Shown here piece after piece: positions 5,016 to 63,826 of a DNA stretch of 64,000 nucleotides (positions within the stretch are counted from its first letter, which is position 1; the number at the start of each line of letters is the position of its first letter). The notes under the pieces were generated by a model. It ran no database searches, was not told the DNA's origin, and saw only the letters and a list, made by a program, of their open reading frames with translations. A program made the position numbers and the translations under genes. Origin of the DNA: Pseudobdellovibrio exovorus JSS (GTDB lineage Bacteria > Bdellovibrionota > Bdellovibrionia > Bdellovibrionales > Bdellovibrionaceae); assembly GCF_000348725.1 (NCBI RefSeq), contig NC_020813.1:2587563-2651562 (forward strand), read 5' to 3'.

Positions 5016-5065
5016 GTAGGCCGTACCTTATCCGGTAATATAACGCCGGATAAGGTACGGCCTAC
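5016..5065. repeat. REP-like inverted pair (compact REPIN-type hairpin)
   Basis: GTAGGCCGTACCTTATCCGG at 5016-5035 and its exact reverse complement at 5046-5065 flank a 10-base loop. As RNA or single-stranded DNA this folds into a 20-bp perfect hairpin with both GTAG/CTAC feet at its base. It fills the gap between asnS and the carboxyltransferase gene and could terminate or stabilise transcripts. Confidence 0.85.
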
Positions 5066-22385: not shown

Positions 22386-22781
22386 ATGAAGAGCGCCGAA
22401 AACGACTCTGTTTTAACATCTGATTTTGATTTGATTAAAAAGTCTTTGCTCATGCAAAAGAGCGATATTCTTAACAAACACAAAGAGTTCAAAAGCTTGC
22501 AAACCGCTTCGGCGAAAGCAGCTGACGAAGCCGATGCTGTTGTTCAAAATTTACAAGACAATTTAAACATCCAATTGCACGAGCGCGATCGTCATTCTTT
22601 GATTTTGATCGACAAAGCTCTTTCTAAATTTTCTGAAGGTAGCTATGGCAAATGTGAAGCCTGTGAAGAGATGATCTCTTTACGCCGCTTACAAGCTCGC
22701 CCACTAGCCACTTTATGTATCGCCTGCATGGAAGAAAACGAAAGCGCCAACTCTTCCGCCGGCCGCAATATTCTTCAATAG
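22386..22781 (+). CDS. DksA/TraR-family zinc-finger protein
   Basis: 131 residues. A helical N-terminal half (coiled-coil region about 15-75) precedes the zinc finger KCEACEEMI...LCIACMEE with the CxxC...CxxC quartet and the family segment SEGSYGKCEAC. It is predicted to act on RNA polymerase in stringent-type control. It lies 136 bp after the degenerate paralogue and is preceded by its own structured leader. Whether the two bind the same target is unknown. The long hairpin locus begins about 70 bp downstream. Confidence 0.88.
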   Translation: MKSAENDSVLTSDFDLIKKSLLMQKSDILNKHKEFKSLQTASAKAADEADAVVQNLQDNLNIQLHERDRHSLILIDKALSKFSEGSYGKCEACEEMISLRRLQARPLATLCIACMEENESANSSAGRNILQ

Positions 22782-22851: not shown

Positions 22852-22874
22852 GTGAGTCTTCTTTTTAGACTCAC
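22852..22874. other. Small perfect hairpin next to long-hairpin copy 1
   Basis: GTGAGTCT (22852-22859) and AGACTCAC (22867-22874) around a T-rich 7-base loop. It precedes copy 1 by 6 bp. Confidence 0.5.
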
Positions 22875-22880
22875 GTTAGG

Positions 22881-22956
22881 ATTTATTTTTATAGCCTTTA
22901 AAGCCTCAAACAGCCGCCGAAGGGCGGAACTCGTTTTAAAGGCTATAAAAATAAAT
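22881..22956 (-). repeat. Long-hairpin element, copy 1 (conserved 7x11 internal loop)
   Basis: The outer stem is 22 bp and perfect (22881-22902 with 22935-22956), the inner stem CCGCC/GGCGG (22914-22918 with 22923-22927) caps a 4-base loop. Between them lies an asymmetric internal loop; on the minus strand it reads ACGAGTT (7) opposite CTGTTTGAGGC (11). The same loop recurs in three other elements of this window. With copy 2 and the hairpin 22981-22999 between them (AGACTT/AAGTCT), it fills most of the 513-bp gene-free gap before lon. I see no gene in that gap. Confidence 0.85.
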
Positions 22957-23036
22957 CTACGACAACTCTCAAAAGAAAAAAGACTTCGAACCTAAGTCTA
23001 GCTTTTCTAGTTCAAATCTAAATTACTCTGCTGTTT

Positions 23037-23220
23037 AACTATTTAAATCTAGTTTCTTCATTTCTTTTTGGGGTTTTCCAAAACGAGTTCTGCGGATAGA
23101 AAGACTCTATATTCCTTATTACATCAAATCCCCAGACCGACGTAGAGTCTTTCTATCCCGCAGCTGTCTGAGGCTTTGGAAAACCCCAAAAAGAAATGAA
23201 GAACTGGTCCCAAAATAGTT
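23037..23220 (+). repeat. Long-hairpin element, copy 2 (conserved 7x11 internal loop)
   Basis: The outer stem is 29 bp and perfect (23054-23082 with 23175-23203). The internal loop is ACGAGTT (23083-23089) opposite CTGTCTGAGGC (23164-23174). The inner stem of about 20 bp (23090-23109 with 23143-23163, one bulge) carries a 33-base loop. A further outer stem AACTATTT/AAATAGTT (23037-23044 with 23213-23220) lies beyond a 9x9 loop. Next to the conserved loop, copy 2 has CCAAA/TTTGG where the other copies have TTAAA/TTTAA, a double compensatory change. It ends 74 bp upstream of the lon start. Confidence 0.85.
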
Positions 23221-23294: not shown

Positions 23295-25706
23295 ATGACA
23301 TTTGATAATCAAGCAGTAGAAATTCCTCAAACACTACCAATGTTACCAGTAAGGGACATCGTTGTATTTCCATACATGATCATTCCTTTATTTGTTGGTC
23401 GCGAAGCCTCTATCCGTTCAGTGGAAGATGCGCTTTCGAAAAACCGCCTTATCTTCTTGGCGTCGCAAAAAGACATCACAGAAGAAAACCCAAATCCAGC
23501 CGGCATCTATGAGACTGGTACAGTGGCTAAGATCATGCGCATGCGCAAATTATCTGATGGCCGTGTTAAAATTTTAATCCAAGGTGAAGCTAAAGGTCGT
23601 ATCAAATCTTTCACTAAAACTTCAGGTTCATTTGAAGTTTCAGTTGAAAAAATTGAAGACACTGTAAAAGCAGAACATGCTGAAGAAGTACAAGGTTTAG
23701 TTAAAACAGCTAAATCTCATATCGAAAAAACAATCGCTTTAGGTAAAGCGTTATCTCCGGACATCTTATTAGTATTAGATGATGTTACTGAGCCAGGTCG
23801 TATCGCTGACTTAATCGCTAGCAACATGGGCTTAAAAGTAGCTGATGCTCAAAGAGTATTAGAAACAACTGATACTAAAGAAAGATTGTCTTTAGTTTGC
23901 CAATTATTACAAGAAGAAGTGGAAACGCTTACAGCGCAAGCAAAAACTCGTGGTCACAACCCGAACGATGCTCAACGCGGTCAACGTGAAAACTTCTTAC
24001 GTGAACAAATGAAGGCCATCAAAAATGAGTTGGGAGAACAAGGCGACTCTAAATCAGAAGAAATGGACGAGTTGAAAAACAAAATCCTTACTGCTGGTAT
24101 GCCAGAAGCTGTTCAAACTGAATCTTTAAAACAATTGTCTCGTTTAGAAAGAATGCACCCAGACGCAAGTGAAGCGACTATGGTTCGCACATACTTAGAC
24201 TGGATGGTTGATCTTCCTTGGGGCAAACAATCTGAAGATATCTTAGATATCCAACGTGCGAAAGCTATCTTGGATGAAGATCACTACGACTTACAAAAAG
24301 CTAAAGATCGCGTATTAGAGTTCTTAGCTGTTCGTAAATTGAAATCAACTATCAAAGGTCCAATCCTTTGCTTCAGCGGTCCTCCAGGTGTAGGTAAAAC
24401 TTCTCTTGGTCGTTCAATCGCTAAATCAATGGGCCGTGAGTACTTCCGTATCGCATTAGGCGGCGTAAAAGACGAAGCTGAAATCCGCGGTCACAGAAGA
24501 ACTTATGTTGGAGCAATGCCGGGTAAAATCATCCAAGCATTACGCCAAGCTAAAACACGCAACCCAGTTATCGTGTTAGATGAAATCGATAAAATGGCTT
24601 CTGACTTTAAAGGTGATCCGTCATCAGCAATGTTAGAGGTGTTGGATCCAGAACAAAATGCTTCTTTCCGTGATAACTACTTGAACGTGGACTTTGACTT
24701 GTCGAATGTATTATTCATCGCGACAGCAAACGTAGTAGAAAATATCCCTGCGGCACTTCGTGATCGTATGGAAATGATCTACATCCCAGGTTACACAGAA
24801 AACGATAAGCTTTTGATCACGAAAAAACATTTGATCGAAAGACAAATGGAAGCGAATGGCATCACATCAGAAAACATCCGTTTCACTGATGAAGGTTTGA
24901 AGTTCTTGATCGCTGGTTACACTCGCGAAGCTGGTCTTCGTAACTTAGAGCGCGAAGTGGGTTCTGTTTGCCGTAAAGTAGCAAAACAAGTGGTAATGAA
25001 TGAAACTAACTTCATCGAAGTAAATGCGAAAACAGTTCCTGAGTTATTAGGTCCTCCTCGCTTCACTCGTGATGACAAAATGTTGGAATCAAATGTCGGT
25101 GTGGTTCAAGGTTTAGCTTGGACACAAGCTGGTGGAGAAGTTCTGTTGATCGAAGCCTTGAAAATGAAAGGTAAAGGTCACTTGATGTTGACTGGTCAAC
25201 TAGGCGATGTGATGAAAGAGTCGGCTCATGCAGCGATGTCTTACGCCCGCGCCCACATGGACGAACTTGGTATCGACCAAGAAATGTTTGAAAAATTTGA
25301 TGTTCACGTTCACTTGCCTGCAGGTGCGATCCCTAAAGATGGTCCTTCTGCTGGTATCACTCTAACAACAGCTTTAGTGAGCTTGTTGACAGGAACCGCG
25401 GTTCGTAACGATATCGCAATGACTGGTGAAGTGACTCTGCAAGGACGTGTGTTACCTGTAGGTGGAATCCGCGAAAAATGCTTAGCGGCTTTGAACTTAG
25501 GTATTACAAACGTGATCATCCCAATGGCGAACGCGAAGGATTTAGAAGACATTCCGACGCAGTTCAAAGAAAAAATGAACTTTATCTTGGCTGAAAACTT
25601 AGACGAAGTGTTCGCGGTAGCCTTCGAAAAGTCAGAAAAGTTTATGAAAAAATTAGGTACTAAAAGACAAGAAAAGAAAGCTAAAGCCTCAACAGCTGCA
25701 GCTTAA
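23295..25706 (+). CDS. lon: ATP-dependent protease Lon
   Basis: 803 residues, normal length. The N-terminal substrate domain begins LPMLPVRDIVVFPYMIIPLFVGREASI (in pieces). The AAA+ module has Walker A GPPGVGKTS and Walker B VIVLDEIDKM, and the protease domain has the Ser-Lys dyad in KDGPSAGIT and GIREKCLAALN. It degrades misfolded and regulatory proteins in the cytoplasm. AGGAG precedes ATG 23295. A hairpin CAGAAT/ATTCTG lies in the leader. Codons are strongly uniform (TTA, GGT, GCT, GAA), as expected for a highly expressed gene. A strong terminator follows. Confidence 0.98.
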   Translation: MTFDNQAVEIPQTLPMLPVRDIVVFPYMIIPLFVGREASIRSVEDALSKNRLIFLASQKDITEENPNPAGIYETGTVAKIMRMRKLSDGRVKILIQGEAKGRIKSFTKTSGSFEVSVEKIEDTVKAEHAEEVQGLVKTAKSHIEKTIALGKALSPDILLVLDDVTEPGRIADLIASNMGLKVADAQRVLETTDTKERLSLVCQLLQEEVETLTAQAKTRGHNPNDAQRGQRENFLREQMKAIKNELGEQGDSKSEEMDELKNKILTAGMPEAVQTESLKQLSRLERMHPDASEATMVRTYLDWMVDLPWGKQSEDILDIQRAKAILDEDHYDLQKAKDRVLEFLAVRKLKSTIKGPILCFSGPPGVGKTSLGRSIAKSMGREYFRIALGGVKDEAEIRGHRRTYVGAMPGKIIQALRQAKTRNPVIVLDEIDKMASDFKGDPSSAMLEVLDPEQNASFRDNYLNVDFDLSNVLFIATANVVENIPAALRDRMEMIYIPGYTENDKLLITKKHLIERQMEANGITSENIRFTDEGLKFLIAGYTREAGLRNLEREVGSVCRKVAKQVVMNETNFIEVNAKTVPELLGPPRFTRDDKMLESNVGVVQGLAWTQAGGEVLLIEALKMKGKGHLMLTGQLGDVMKESAHAAMSYARAHMDELGIDQEMFEKFDVHVHLPAGAIPKDGPSAGITLTTALVSLLTGTAVRNDIAMTGEVTLQGRVLPVGGIREKCLAALNLGITNVIIPMANAKDLEDIPTQFKEKMNFILAENLDEVFAVAFEKSEKFMKKLGTKRQEKKAKASTAAA

Positions 25707-33340: not shown

Positions 33341-34558
33341 ATGCAAACGAAATTGATCAATCAAGACATCAGCTTAGAAAGTCCGATGCGTATTCCTTTG
33401 ATACGCAAAGCTTTAACTGATCCTTTGATTCAATTAAGTCCGCGCGCGATCGATCATCGCTGGCAAAGCGAGGCTAGCTTGCCTGCAGCTACGGGATTTA
33501 ATCCCTACAGCATGAAGATCTACTTGCCCTTCAACAGCGTTGTTTTTGATTGGCTAAAAAATCCAGCGCAATCGGCTCGCCCTTTTAACGAAGACGATGC
33601 TCTGATTAAAAAACTTTTGCTGGTGGTGCATGACTACATTCACTGCTGGTCTATTCTGGCGGTACGCCAACTGCGTCCAGACCTCAACTTTGGCTGCGCA
33701 GAAATCACCTCTGAAAATTTTGAAGACATGGTGTTCTGCCATTTGTTAACAGAGGCCGCCGCCGTTGCCGGAGCCGACTACTGGTATTGGAGTCAAAACA
33801 AAATTAACGATCTTTGCCCGATTGGCACCAGAACAAATTCTTTTGCTGTTTCTTATCAATCCAGTGAACTTGGCGAGTTCCGCAAATTTAATCCTGACTT
33901 CAATCCCTTTCATAAAGACTTCCTGTCTTATTTGACGAGCAACTACTGCCGTGGTGATTTTGCAGGCTTTGATTTACTTAAGATCAAAGAAAGCCCCATG
34001 GTCTCCCATACGATTTTTCACGAAGTCAGCTATTCTCATTCCCAACGACTTTATTCACGTCGGATTATTTCTTCTTTTTCTAAGATGCCGGATAACTTTC
34101 ATCTGTCCGAAATGGCTGAATCTTTAAAAGCACCCGTTTCTTTTCGTGAAGACTGGAAAAAAGATCTGACCTTGCGCCTAGCTAATTTATTGTGGAATTA
34201 TATTTTGGATTTAGAGCCACAATTAGATTTTCAGTTAGACTCTCATACTGATCCACTTCAAGAAGAAACGCGCTGGCAAAGCCATAAAAATCACTACATG
34301 TACACCAATGTCAACTCCCTCACGGAAGAACAGCTTCAAGCCGAACTGAGCCACATGGAATGGAACGAAGACAAGTATTGGTTTTGGACACAGTATATTT
34401 CGACGTTTGAGTTTTCACAGTTTACCAAACTAGAACTAGATAAAATTCGCCTTGGTCTTTTAATTAAAAGCCAAGAGCGCCTTTTAGAAGTTGTGGATGG
34501 AAAAACGCGTTTAGCTTTGAATACCTACGAACCACAAACACTTTTTATTCCAAACTAA
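33341..34558 (+). CDS. Unknown protein with HDxxH...HLxTE motif, island member
   Basis: 405 residues, soluble. LLLVVHDYIHCW (His97-Asp98-x-x-His101) and CHLLTEAAAV (His134, Glu138) reproduce the motif pair of the 318-residue island protein with a 32-residue spacing. A pattern of His/Asp/Glu on predicted helices would suit a metal centre. AGGTAA precedes ATG 33341. A -10-like TATACT (33315-33320) lies in the 30-bp divergent gap. It is followed after 12 bp by the NIS-synthetase-like gene. Function unknown. Confidence 0.6.
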   Translation: MQTKLINQDISLESPMRIPLIRKALTDPLIQLSPRAIDHRWQSEASLPAATGFNPYSMKIYLPFNSVVFDWLKNPAQSARPFNEDDALIKKLLLVVHDYIHCWSILAVRQLRPDLNFGCAEITSENFEDMVFCHLLTEAAAVAGADYWYWSQNKINDLCPIGTRTNSFAVSYQSSELGEFRKFNPDFNPFHKDFLSYLTSNYCRGDFAGFDLLKIKESPMVSHTIFHEVSYSHSQRLYSRRIISSFSKMPDNFHLSEMAESLKAPVSFREDWKKDLTLRLANLLWNYILDLEPQLDFQLDSHTDPLQEETRWQSHKNHYMYTNVNSLTEEQLQAELSHMEWNEDKYWFWTQYISTFEFSQFTKLELDKIRLGLLIKSQERLLEVVDGKTRLALNTYEPQTLFIPN

Positions 34559-62050: not shown

Positions 62051-62136
62051 GGTGTCTCCTTATAGTTGCGCAGTCATATTGGCTTTTTGTCGAGTCCTGA
62101 GCAAGAAAAATTTCAGTTTTAGGACCTTTTAGCCGA

Positions 62137-62152
62137 TGTTCTACGTGGAACA
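62137..62152. promoter_or_regulatory. parS site 1 (one mismatch)
   Basis: TGTTCTACGTGGAACA differs from a perfect palindrome at one position and matches the widely conserved ParB target (TGTTNCACGTGNAACA type). It covers the GTGGAAC that is the only SD candidate for the ATG at 62157. Confidence 0.85.
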
Positions 62153-62156
62153 TTAC

Positions 62157-62657
62157 ATGAAACCTCTACTTTTTATAGCTTTTGCGCTTATTTTAGCCTC
62201 GTGTACGAAGAAAAATCCGAATCCGGAGCTTTCCGACGCTATTTATATGGATCTTCAAGAGGAATTATCTATTGCTGACAAGGCCCTTGAGGAAGAAACC
62301 AAGAATTTGGCTAGTCTACAGAAGGAAAAAGACGCTGTTGTTCCTCAGACTGGACAAGTTAAATACGCCCTCAAAAAGGTGGAAGATTCCCTAGCGAAAA
62401 TCGATCGCCTGAAACAGCAGAAACAATTCTTTGAAATTAGCCTTGAAACGCGAAAACATCTAGTAGCCGAGCGCTACGAAGAAAGCCTCACTGAAGGCGG
62501 TCGCCCATGGCCCGACGAAGCCGAAATTGCGGACTATCGCGCTATTATCAAGATCCAACGGGAAAAAATCGCCTACGACAAGGTCCAAGGCATGAGAAAA
62601 TATGTTCCACGTGGAACAACCGAGCCTGCTTCGGCGCCTTCCCCTTCTAAACACTAG
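62157..62657 (+). CDS. Small lipoprotein with coiled coil, parS inside the gene
   Basis: About 166 residues from ATG 62157: KPLLFIAFALILASC is a lipoprotein signal with lipidation at the Cys of LASC. The upstream ATG 62136 would add seven residues before the signal and is less likely. The mature protein is mainly a charged coiled coil (LQEELSIADKALEEETKNLASLQKEKDAVV, in pieces). A second parS site lies near the 3' end, encoding YVPRGTT. Function unknown; the conserved placement of parS suggests the locus is under constraint as DNA. Confidence 0.75.
   Translation: MKPLLFIAFALILASCTKKNPNPELSDAIYMDLQEELSIADKALEEETKNLASLQKEKDAVVPQTGQVKYALKKVEDSLAKIDRLKQQKQFFEISLETRKHLVAERYEESLTEGGRPWPDEAEIADYRAIIKIQREKIAYDKVQGMRKYVPRGTTEPASAPSPSKH
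62603..62618. promoter_or_regulatory. parS site 2 (perfect palindrome)
   Basis: TGTTCCACGTGGAACA is a perfect 16-bp palindrome of the ParB target class, inside the lipoprotein coding region and 553 bp from the parA start. Confidence 0.95.
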
Positions 62658-62658
62658 C

Positions 62659-62777
62659 GTCCTAGTCGGGAGTCCTTTTTCAATAGTACTTATGCGCTTT
62701 AAAGCCTCGGACAGCCGCCGAAGGGCGGAACTCGTTTTAAAGCGCATAAGTACTATTGAAATAACGATGACTAGGAC
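62659..62777 (-). repeat. Long-hairpin element, copy 3 (conserved 7x11 internal loop)
   Basis: The outer stem is 26 bp and perfect (62678-62703 with 62736-62761). The minus-strand internal loop is ACGAGTT opposite CTGTCCGAGGC (62729-62735, 62704-62714), and the inner stem CCGCC/GGCGG has a 4-base loop. A further stem GTCCTAGTC/GACTAGGAC (62659-62667 with 62769-62777) lies outside a 10x7 loop. It begins 2 bp after the lipoprotein stop. Its core is identical to copy 1 apart from two bases, but the outer arms are unrelated. Confidence 0.85.
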
Positions 62778-62834
62778 ATTAGAAGGGGAAATTCTGGCGA
62801 AAGATTGGTTGCATTGGTCCTGTTCACACTTAGA

Positions 62835-62856
62835 TCTAGTCCTGAGCAGGACTGGA
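62835..62856. other. Small hairpin in the spacer between copies 3 and 4
   Basis: TCTAGTCCT pairs with AGGACTGGA (one T-G pair) around GAGC. A comparable hairpin (22981-22999) lies between copies 1 and 2. The rest of the gap 62658-63082 holds only copies 3 and 4; I see no gene. Confidence 0.5.
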
Positions 62857-62914
62857 GCCTCGTCTGGATAAAGAAGCTATCAACAAAGACACCCCACCCA
62901 CTACAGCTATAGTC

Positions 62915-63076
62915 TTTTACTCTCGCGTGAAGATAATCTTTTTAGCCTTTAAAACGAGTTCTGTTAGAAAACAACGATCAACGCCGATTACGAAGAAAGG
63001 GTCGCAAGTTTTCTAACAGCTGTCCGAGGCTTTAAAGGCTAAAAAGATTATCTTCATTCCGTGACCGAGTAAAAGG
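62915..63076 (+). repeat. Long-hairpin element, copy 4 (conserved 7x11 internal loop)
   Basis: The outer stem is 26 bp and perfect (62929-62954 with 63032-63057). The internal loop is ACGAGTT (62955-62961) opposite CTGTCCGAGGC (63021-63031). The inner stem of 12 bp is perfect (62962-62973 with 63009-63020) with a 35-base loop. A further stem CTTTTACTC/GAGTAAAAG (62915-62923 with 63068-63076) lies beyond a 5x10 loop. It ends 6 bp from the stop codon of rsmG, which reads toward it. Confidence 0.85.
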
Positions 63077-63082
63077 CGAAAG

Positions 63083-63760
63083 CTAGTCCAACTTCAGGGT
63101 TTCCACCACAAACATCTTCGCGTTCGTGACAGGTAGAACGTATTCTCCTGCTAAAGTGGGTTGCCATGCCGAGCAGAGCTGTATGGGGATTTGGGAAATT
63201 TCGATAGCCCATTCTTCACCTTTCATGTGAAAAACAAGCGAGCCTTTCGGCATCATCTTTCTAAGAGTTAAAAGCATTTTCGGAATCTGAGAAAATCCGC
63301 GACTGATCACCTGCTCGATCGGGTCCTTGGCAAGAAGCTCAATCTGCTTATTGATTACTTGAACATTCGTTAATCCAGCTCGCTGAATAACATGTTTTAA
63401 AAATTCACATTTGCGCTCATCAGAGTCTGTCAGAGCTACTCTTTGATCTGGATAAAGGATTCCATAGACCAAACCCGGAAAACCATTGCCGCTACCAAAG
63501 TCATATAACACTTTGTTAACATTCAGTTTTTCTCGAACAATTCTTGAGGCGTAGACAGAATCTGCGAAATGGGTGGCATCAGCGTTAATCAACGTCTTCG
63601 CTGAAACTAAATTGATGACCTTATTGAACTTTTGAAGCTCTGTAAAATAAAGCTCGAGGTTCCTATAAACTGTTTCATCCAGTTCAGGAAACCAATTCTT
63701 CAAACGCCAATTAGGTGCTGCTTTGTCTGAGTTGTCGTGCTTGATTTCAGGTGCGCTCAA
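63083..63760 (-). CDS. rsmG: 16S rRNA (guanine-527-N7) methyltransferase RsmG
   Basis: 225 residues from a TTG at 63760, which has AAGGAG 7 nt upstream; the in-frame GTG at 63778 overlaps that SD. NLVSAKT, LYDFGSGNGFPGLVYGIL (SAM-binding) and LTDSDERKCEFLKHV are characteristic of GidB/RsmG. It methylates G527 of 16S rRNA. Paired with mnmG upstream, the usual origin-proximal arrangement. Confidence 0.95.
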   Translation of the reverse strand: MSAPEIKHDNSDKAAPNWRLKNWFPELDETVYRNLELYFTELQKFNKVINLVSAKTLINADATHFADSVYASRIVREKLNVNKVLYDFGSGNGFPGLVYGILYPDQRVALTDSDERKCEFLKHVIQRAGLTNVQVINKQIELLAKDPIEQVISRGFSQIPKMLLTLRKMMPKGSLVFHMKGEEWAIEISQIPIQLCSAWQPTLAGEYVLPVTNAKMFVVETLKLD

Positions 63761-63826
63761 TTCAACACTCCTTTTCACATTCCATGTGTGCCGCTACAGA
63801 CATTTATCGGATTAATTTTTTATCGA

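Follow-up and report, generated by a model that had tools for sequence, protein, structure and literature searches.

The paired hairpins described here represent a new family of short repeats found in predatory bacteria that resemble Bdellovibrio. Members share the same core, but their stems seem to have been copied from neighbouring DNA, so that insertions look unlike each other. We consider it probable, by a modest measure, that the family is one of dispersed hairpins, similar to BIMEs when paired, with stems that originate in fold-back copying of flanking DNA and are kept matched by template switching. The family is not described in the literature we searched, and Rfam release 15 gives no match in the window, by which we mean the whole 64,000-nucleotide stretch analysed (positions 2587563-2651562 of the single-contig, 2,657,893 bp genome of Pseudobdellovibrio exovorus JSS); across 17 loci, tRNA and rRNA alone reach the gathering score.

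At both window loci (Table 1, with genes called as open reading frames) a minus-strand copy, a spacer and a plus-strand copy follow one another, as the original prediction had stated. All four hairpins are recovered, and the minimum free energies of the two minus copies stand at z = -6.6 and -7.9, with none of 200 shuffles as good. Their sequence as well as their structure lies well outside what chance would give. The four copies score 71-87 bits (E 1e-16 to 4e-13) with a covariance model that was built from them, so that these scores are not independent. The prediction had also counted a small hairpin in the spacer as a component. This part has to be given up: the spacer hairpins do not fold significantly better than shuffled sequence (z = -0.9, 39 of 200 shuffles as good, and z = -1.7, 13 of 200).

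Table 1. Elements, spacers and flanking genes at the two loci (window coordinates) and copies elsewhere in the genome (contig positions)
Feature	Position	Strand	Details
dksA/traR-type zinc-finger gene, left of pair 1	22386-22781	+	Pfam zf-dskA_traR 2e-11
Hairpin element 1, pair 1	22880-22957	-	core 22906-22933, containing short inner hairpin CCGCC-CTTC-GGCGG
Arms, element 1 of pair 1	22880-22905; 22934-22957		native, dksA side; copy
Spacer, pair 1	22958-23053	none	
Hairpin element 2, pair 1	23054-23203	+	core 23084-23171, long inner hairpin (72 nt gap)
Arms, element 2 of pair 1	23054-23083; 23172-23203		copy; native, lon side
lon protease gene, right of pair 1	23295-25706	+	Pfam Lon_C 2e-88
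ORF, left of pair 2	62136-62657	+	no Pfam family; parS-like site TGTTCCACGTGGAACA near 62603
Hairpin element 1, pair 2	62678-62761	-	core 62707-62734, short inner hairpin same as in pair 1
Arms, element 1 of pair 2	62678-62706; 62735-62761		native, ORF side; copy
Spacer, pair 2	62762-62927	none	
Hairpin element 2, pair 2	62928-63056	+	core 62955-63027, long inner hairpin (57 nt gap)
Arms, element 2 of pair 2	62928-62954; 63028-63056		copy; native, rsmG side
rsmG (gidB), right of pair 2	63083-63778	-	Pfam GidB 3e-33
Single copy	contig 23948	-	
Single copy	contig 400451	-	
Single copy	contig 2173582	+	
Single copy	contig 2535914	+	
All four pairs	dksA-lon; parS-ORF/rsmG; contig 2554685/2554866; contig 430622/430834	minus then plus	

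Genome-wide, 12 copies were found, eight of them in four pairs that are all arranged minus then plus, and four single; by our own estimate, chance would give about 0.01 pairs less than 300 bp apart. Each pair joins unlike partners, with an inner hairpin of 11-12 nt in one copy and 55-72 nt in the other. Exact patterns with a gap of up to 36 recovered short-hairpin copies alone, so that a covariance model, built from 12 copies, was required; its first pass misses copies with such long inner hairpins (the one at 2535914 scored E 4.2). An exhaustive hairpin scan covered 1.66 Mb (63% of the genome), the remainder being searched with the covariance model and patterns. It returned 18 long hairpins scoring 20 or more, nine of which contain the core; six and two of the others fall into two repeat families and the last is the inner hairpin of an element. 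No unique long near-perfect hairpin in the 1.66 Mb scanned lacks the core, and unique long palindromes and the core therefore go together in this genome. The prediction that two elements act together thus fares unevenly: fixed orientation and the paired state of eight of 12 copies speak for it, but copies in the rest of the class Bdellovibrionia are mostly single, and the element hence needs no partner. A minus-then-plus pair also occurs in genome G117, from a different family of the order (locus L319, 2964-3292), so pairing is not confined to the window genome.

What is conserved is small. The element proper is an asymmetric internal loop, CGAGTT opposite TGTYYGA, held between a variable inner hairpin and a core-proximal stem of about 6-15 bp. 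Read along the CGAGTT strand, a variable outer arm is followed by AAAA, CGAGTT, the inner hairpin, (N)TGTYYGA, the positions G/C, C/T and TTT, and finally the outer arm that complements the first. A Y-G-A-R word stands on each strand of the loop (CGAG on one, YGAG on the other); such words permit tandem sheared G.A pairs, a possible structure here. The outer stem is locus-specific and 20-133 bp long: in 133 distinct copies, unrelated arms surround the common core, with a median length of 33 bp (maximum 133), a mean identity of 94.8% and 40 perfect matches. Inner hairpins come as short GC stems, as long stems with loops of about 30 nt, as bidirectional terminators, or as type-specific stems common to several genera. 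There are also nested arrangements, with one element inside the inner hairpin of another (loci L111 and L099), and a minimal copy without inner hairpin, CTTAAACGAGTTGTGTGTCTGAGCTTTAAG, adjoins the main copy in L190; similar minimal cores occur in L085 and L102.

The covariance model finds copies in 21 of the 66 family genomes and in 42 of the 144 from the class as a whole, and detects as many as 18 in one genome. A scan of 84,980 species genomes for the core pattern gave 41 stretches, of which those with arms are nearly all from Bdellovibrionales. Of the stretches with arms, two MAG contigs labelled KSB1 and Omnitrophica fall outside this order, and they may be misbinned. Eight matches in other phyla have no arms, look like chance and were set aside.

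Does the hairpin form on DNA or RNA, and on which strand? We counted arm mismatches with symmetric scoring; an arm extension favouring G.T gave the same bias. On the CGAGTT strand, the first 20 bp of the arms contain 68 G.T and 9 A.C mismatches, versus 26 and 27 beyond 20 bp (Fisher p 2e-6). Twenty of 21 genomes agree and the high-scoring subset retains the bias (22 versus 3), so that detection bias is no explanation. Because the proximal stem keeps G.T but not A.C, it is strongly indicated that the CGAGTT...TGTYYGA strand folds single-stranded, as RNA or ssDNA; the plus strand is also the better folder in 98 cases versus 32. This singles out the core-proximal part as under selection for its fold on one strand; the distal arms look like DNA free of such selection.

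The distal arms appear to lead back to the flanking sequence. In five cases involving a tRNA gene, one arm includes the CCA end and reaches 3-8 nt into the tRNA 3' end, and the same fragment lies inverted in the opposite arm. All five tRNAs are on the TGTYYGA (3') side, as is a sixth located 22 nt away. Protein-coding genes follow suit as a tendency, in that gene 3' ends lie at or in (within 15 nt of) the 3'-side arm only in 27 copies and the 5'-side arm only in 10 (p 0.008), some CDS ends being found in the 5'-side arm. Where tRNAs or genes reveal which side is native, the stem reads as the inverse of that native flank on the 3' side. Mirror symmetry even extends beyond the arms: 26 of 125 copies show this where 1.25 would be expected, and in L209 the mirror image runs 70 bp further than the arms.

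Spacers of pairs carry related traces. In three of the four pairs they contain decayed inverted copies of a flanking CDS or leader, and four of eight flank-spacer tests on the four pairs reach p<=0.0033, the limit of 300 shuffles; the other four are not significant, both tests of pair L108 among them. The right half of the pair 1 spacer aligns with the inverted region upstream of lon (p<=0.0033, the test limit), and its left half has a non-significant likeness (p 0.42) to the inverted dksA terminator region. In pair 2, the left part of the spacer carries, inverted and decayed, about 115 nt from the 3' end of the ORF at 62136-62657 (p<=0.0033, again the test limit), part of the parS region included, and the right part compares with the rsmG end at p 0.18. 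Conservation in relatives shows which side is native at the lon leader and the parS ORF. The parS-like site TGTTCCACGTGGAACA itself lies inside the end of this ORF in the window and is kept inside the corresponding ORF in most relatives.

On these grounds we read a pair as L-E1-L'-R'-E2-R, where L and R are the flanks, E1 and E2 the elements, and L' and R' inverted flank copies. The earlier observation that arms and spacers are dissimilar between the two loci was right; each resembles the inverse of its own flanks instead. The suggestion that a pair marks the ends of a remnant mobile unit survives in part only, as the spacers have no common internal sequence and three of four hold decayed inverted copies of flanking genes. 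As judged from sequence, this suggests two separate hairpins back to back rather than the ends of one unit.

The orthologous gaps in the relatives examined are devoid of the pairs, as the comparison proposed with the original prediction now shows. The dksA-lon gap measures 513 nt in this genome, as against 118-372 nt in the 13 relatives of the genus, all of them without a core; the gap between the parS ORF and rsmG is 425 nt here and 0-592 nt in eight relatives, again without a single core. No empty site could be aligned base by base, the nearest relatives being 20-25% apart in DNA. In G013, a gap matching one copy of G004 truly lacks the element and is too short to tell the native arm.

How might such arms come about? 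Under the reading we prefer, the distal arms would be inverted copies of DNA on the 3' (TGTYYGA) side, outside the element proper, as the tRNA, gene-end, symmetry and spacer results together suggest. Fold-back synthesis, primed from the hairpin at installation or during replication, would make the arms, and template switching between them would later keep them identical or lengthen them. A pair would result when both sides of one site each receive a hairpin, giving flank L - E1 - L' - R' - E2 - R with a spacer composed of L' and R'. As a secondary effect, strong stem-loops would come to lie after gene and tRNA ends, some with a bidirectional terminator inside. Homogenised arms and inverted spacers are both described as template-switching products in PMC8604942 and PMC8794818, and we see both. 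In G113 and G127 whole copies are homologous, yet arms match better within a copy than between copies, and in G028 the inner part is flipped in some copies.

A bolder version, which we hold to be rather unlikely, is that of a new kind of mobile element, whose hairpin core attaches to 3' DNA ends past genes and tRNAs and primes fold-back there, with pairs marking double-strand breaks whose ends were both capped and then joined. If so, each insertion would build its own inverted repeat from target DNA.

More conventional mobility would take the form of a MITE-like DNA transposon family, mobilised by a transposase in trans, with the arms as terminal inverted repeats that look unique when old and co-evolved. 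Copies in G028 are in keeping with this, being palindromes of about 200 bp with conserved ends and, in two copies judged by eye (L219, L220), direct repeats of 11-12 bp. Arms are homologous between copies in G113, G127, G037 and G028, so that there the arms travel with the element, which speaks against the fold-back reading, and in G113 and G127 the homology runs along the arms. Copies in G000, G008 and G117, however, have in common just the core and about 6-15 bp and share no ends, and arms contain locus-specific tRNA and CDS ends, which makes this scenario quite improbable as a general account. MITEs are non-coding palindromic repeats as these are, but window genome copies lack common ends and have arms made of local DNA.

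A small retroelement, its plus-strand RNA reverse-transcribed from a nicked target 3' end and the cDNA snapping back to copy the flank, would account for a plus strand that folds, for native DNA on the 3' side, for the tRNA and CDS fragments and, by priming from both strands, for the pairs. We nevertheless rate it as very improbable: a reverse transcriptase (RVT_1) is encoded by 19 of the 42 element-bearing genomes and by 30 of the 102 others, and is found neither in element-rich G117 nor in G113. An association this weak led us to reject reverse transcriptase as a partner. The same fate befell a Y1/RAYT transposase, as Y1_Tnp occurs in 116 of 144 genomes regardless of whether they have the element, is missing from several element-rich ones (G108, G110) and does not track it; in the window genome we found no RAYT-like gene flanked by the element, and some 100 kb separate the best Y1 gene, at 529 kb, from the closest copy. 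Integron attC sites were discarded on account of the conserved boxes, which here do not lie at the ends of the stem.

Finally, the arms might be complementary by selection rather than by copying, the hairpin being a structured RNA of 3' untranslated regions, or a terminator or insulator, its sequence unconstrained apart from a protein-binding internal loop, and pairs serving convergent genes with one element for each gene end. Genomic context is where this idea, which we regard as unlikely, draws its strength. Convergent gene gaps hold 46 of 120 copies, against 13% of gaps of at least 50 bp (p 3e-12, with a baseline from the window genome alone), and divergent gaps are under-used. Most copies in the window genome lie within about 35 nt of a stop codon, and several inner hairpins are canonical bidirectional terminators; terminator-like sites are weak in the window copies and strong inner terminators occur in G008, G013 and L109. 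The gap between rpoD and tRNA-Met is occupied in G000, G008 and G130 with different arms and inner hairpins, suggesting preferred sites or repeated replacement. Orientation in tandem gaps, however, is even (31 versus 24) although one strand is the one that folds; a cis function in 3' untranslated regions gains no support from this and was dropped. Moreover, dksA retains a conserved terminator-like sequence upstream of the element, rpoD has its own separate terminator downstream, and structural selection would not copy tRNA and CDS ends across. As for the bidirectional boundaries originally proposed, the convergent-gap enrichment and the terminator-like appearance of some inner hairpins leave that role neither shown nor excluded.

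Known repeats offer partial parallels. REP/BIME repeats are GTAG- and CGTC-tagged palindromes (PMC3733652). Like them, the elements are short dispersed extragenic hairpins that occur singly or as inverted dimers, and dimers join unlike partners with differing loop lengths, as in all four pairs here. REP stems and their terminal GTAG/CGTC tags are conserved, whereas here conservation is limited to the internal loop, the stem is locus-specific, and the foot of the stem has no conserved sequence, arms being unrelated between copies. Bidirectional intrinsic terminators likewise sit between convergent genes, and some inner hairpins have their A-run/GC-stem/T-run form, but the conserved internal loop and long arms set the elements apart, and a T run is missing from many copies. 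Quasipalindromes and fold-back inverted duplications, as covered in PMC8794818, PMC8604942, PMC3820800 and PMC10622511, share the inverted copies of neighbouring sequence, the homogenised arms and the inverted spacers. Those events are sporadic mutations, whereas here the same core seeds every event in many species.

Should the arms be fold-back copies, they would account for the origin and persistence of long perfect palindromes in bacterial chromosomes, and one short core would provide dozens of natural independent events. The family also supplies a model with which to search for repeats that escape ordinary alignment, since each copy consists mostly of unique sequence.

Two further repeats came to light. 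The sequence GTAGGCCGTACCTTATCCGG occurs seven times in the window (among them at 1863, 5016-5065, 13511, 14259, 25779 and 25987), taking the form of a perfect palindrome in one place and, after lon, of an inverted pair spaced by about 190 bp. A third family of hairpins, GGTGCCAGGCC..TTTACGGAC, has a variable middle and a 7-nt loop and is found on the G000 contig at 34059, 83840, 384378, 483868, 2522256 and 2532056.
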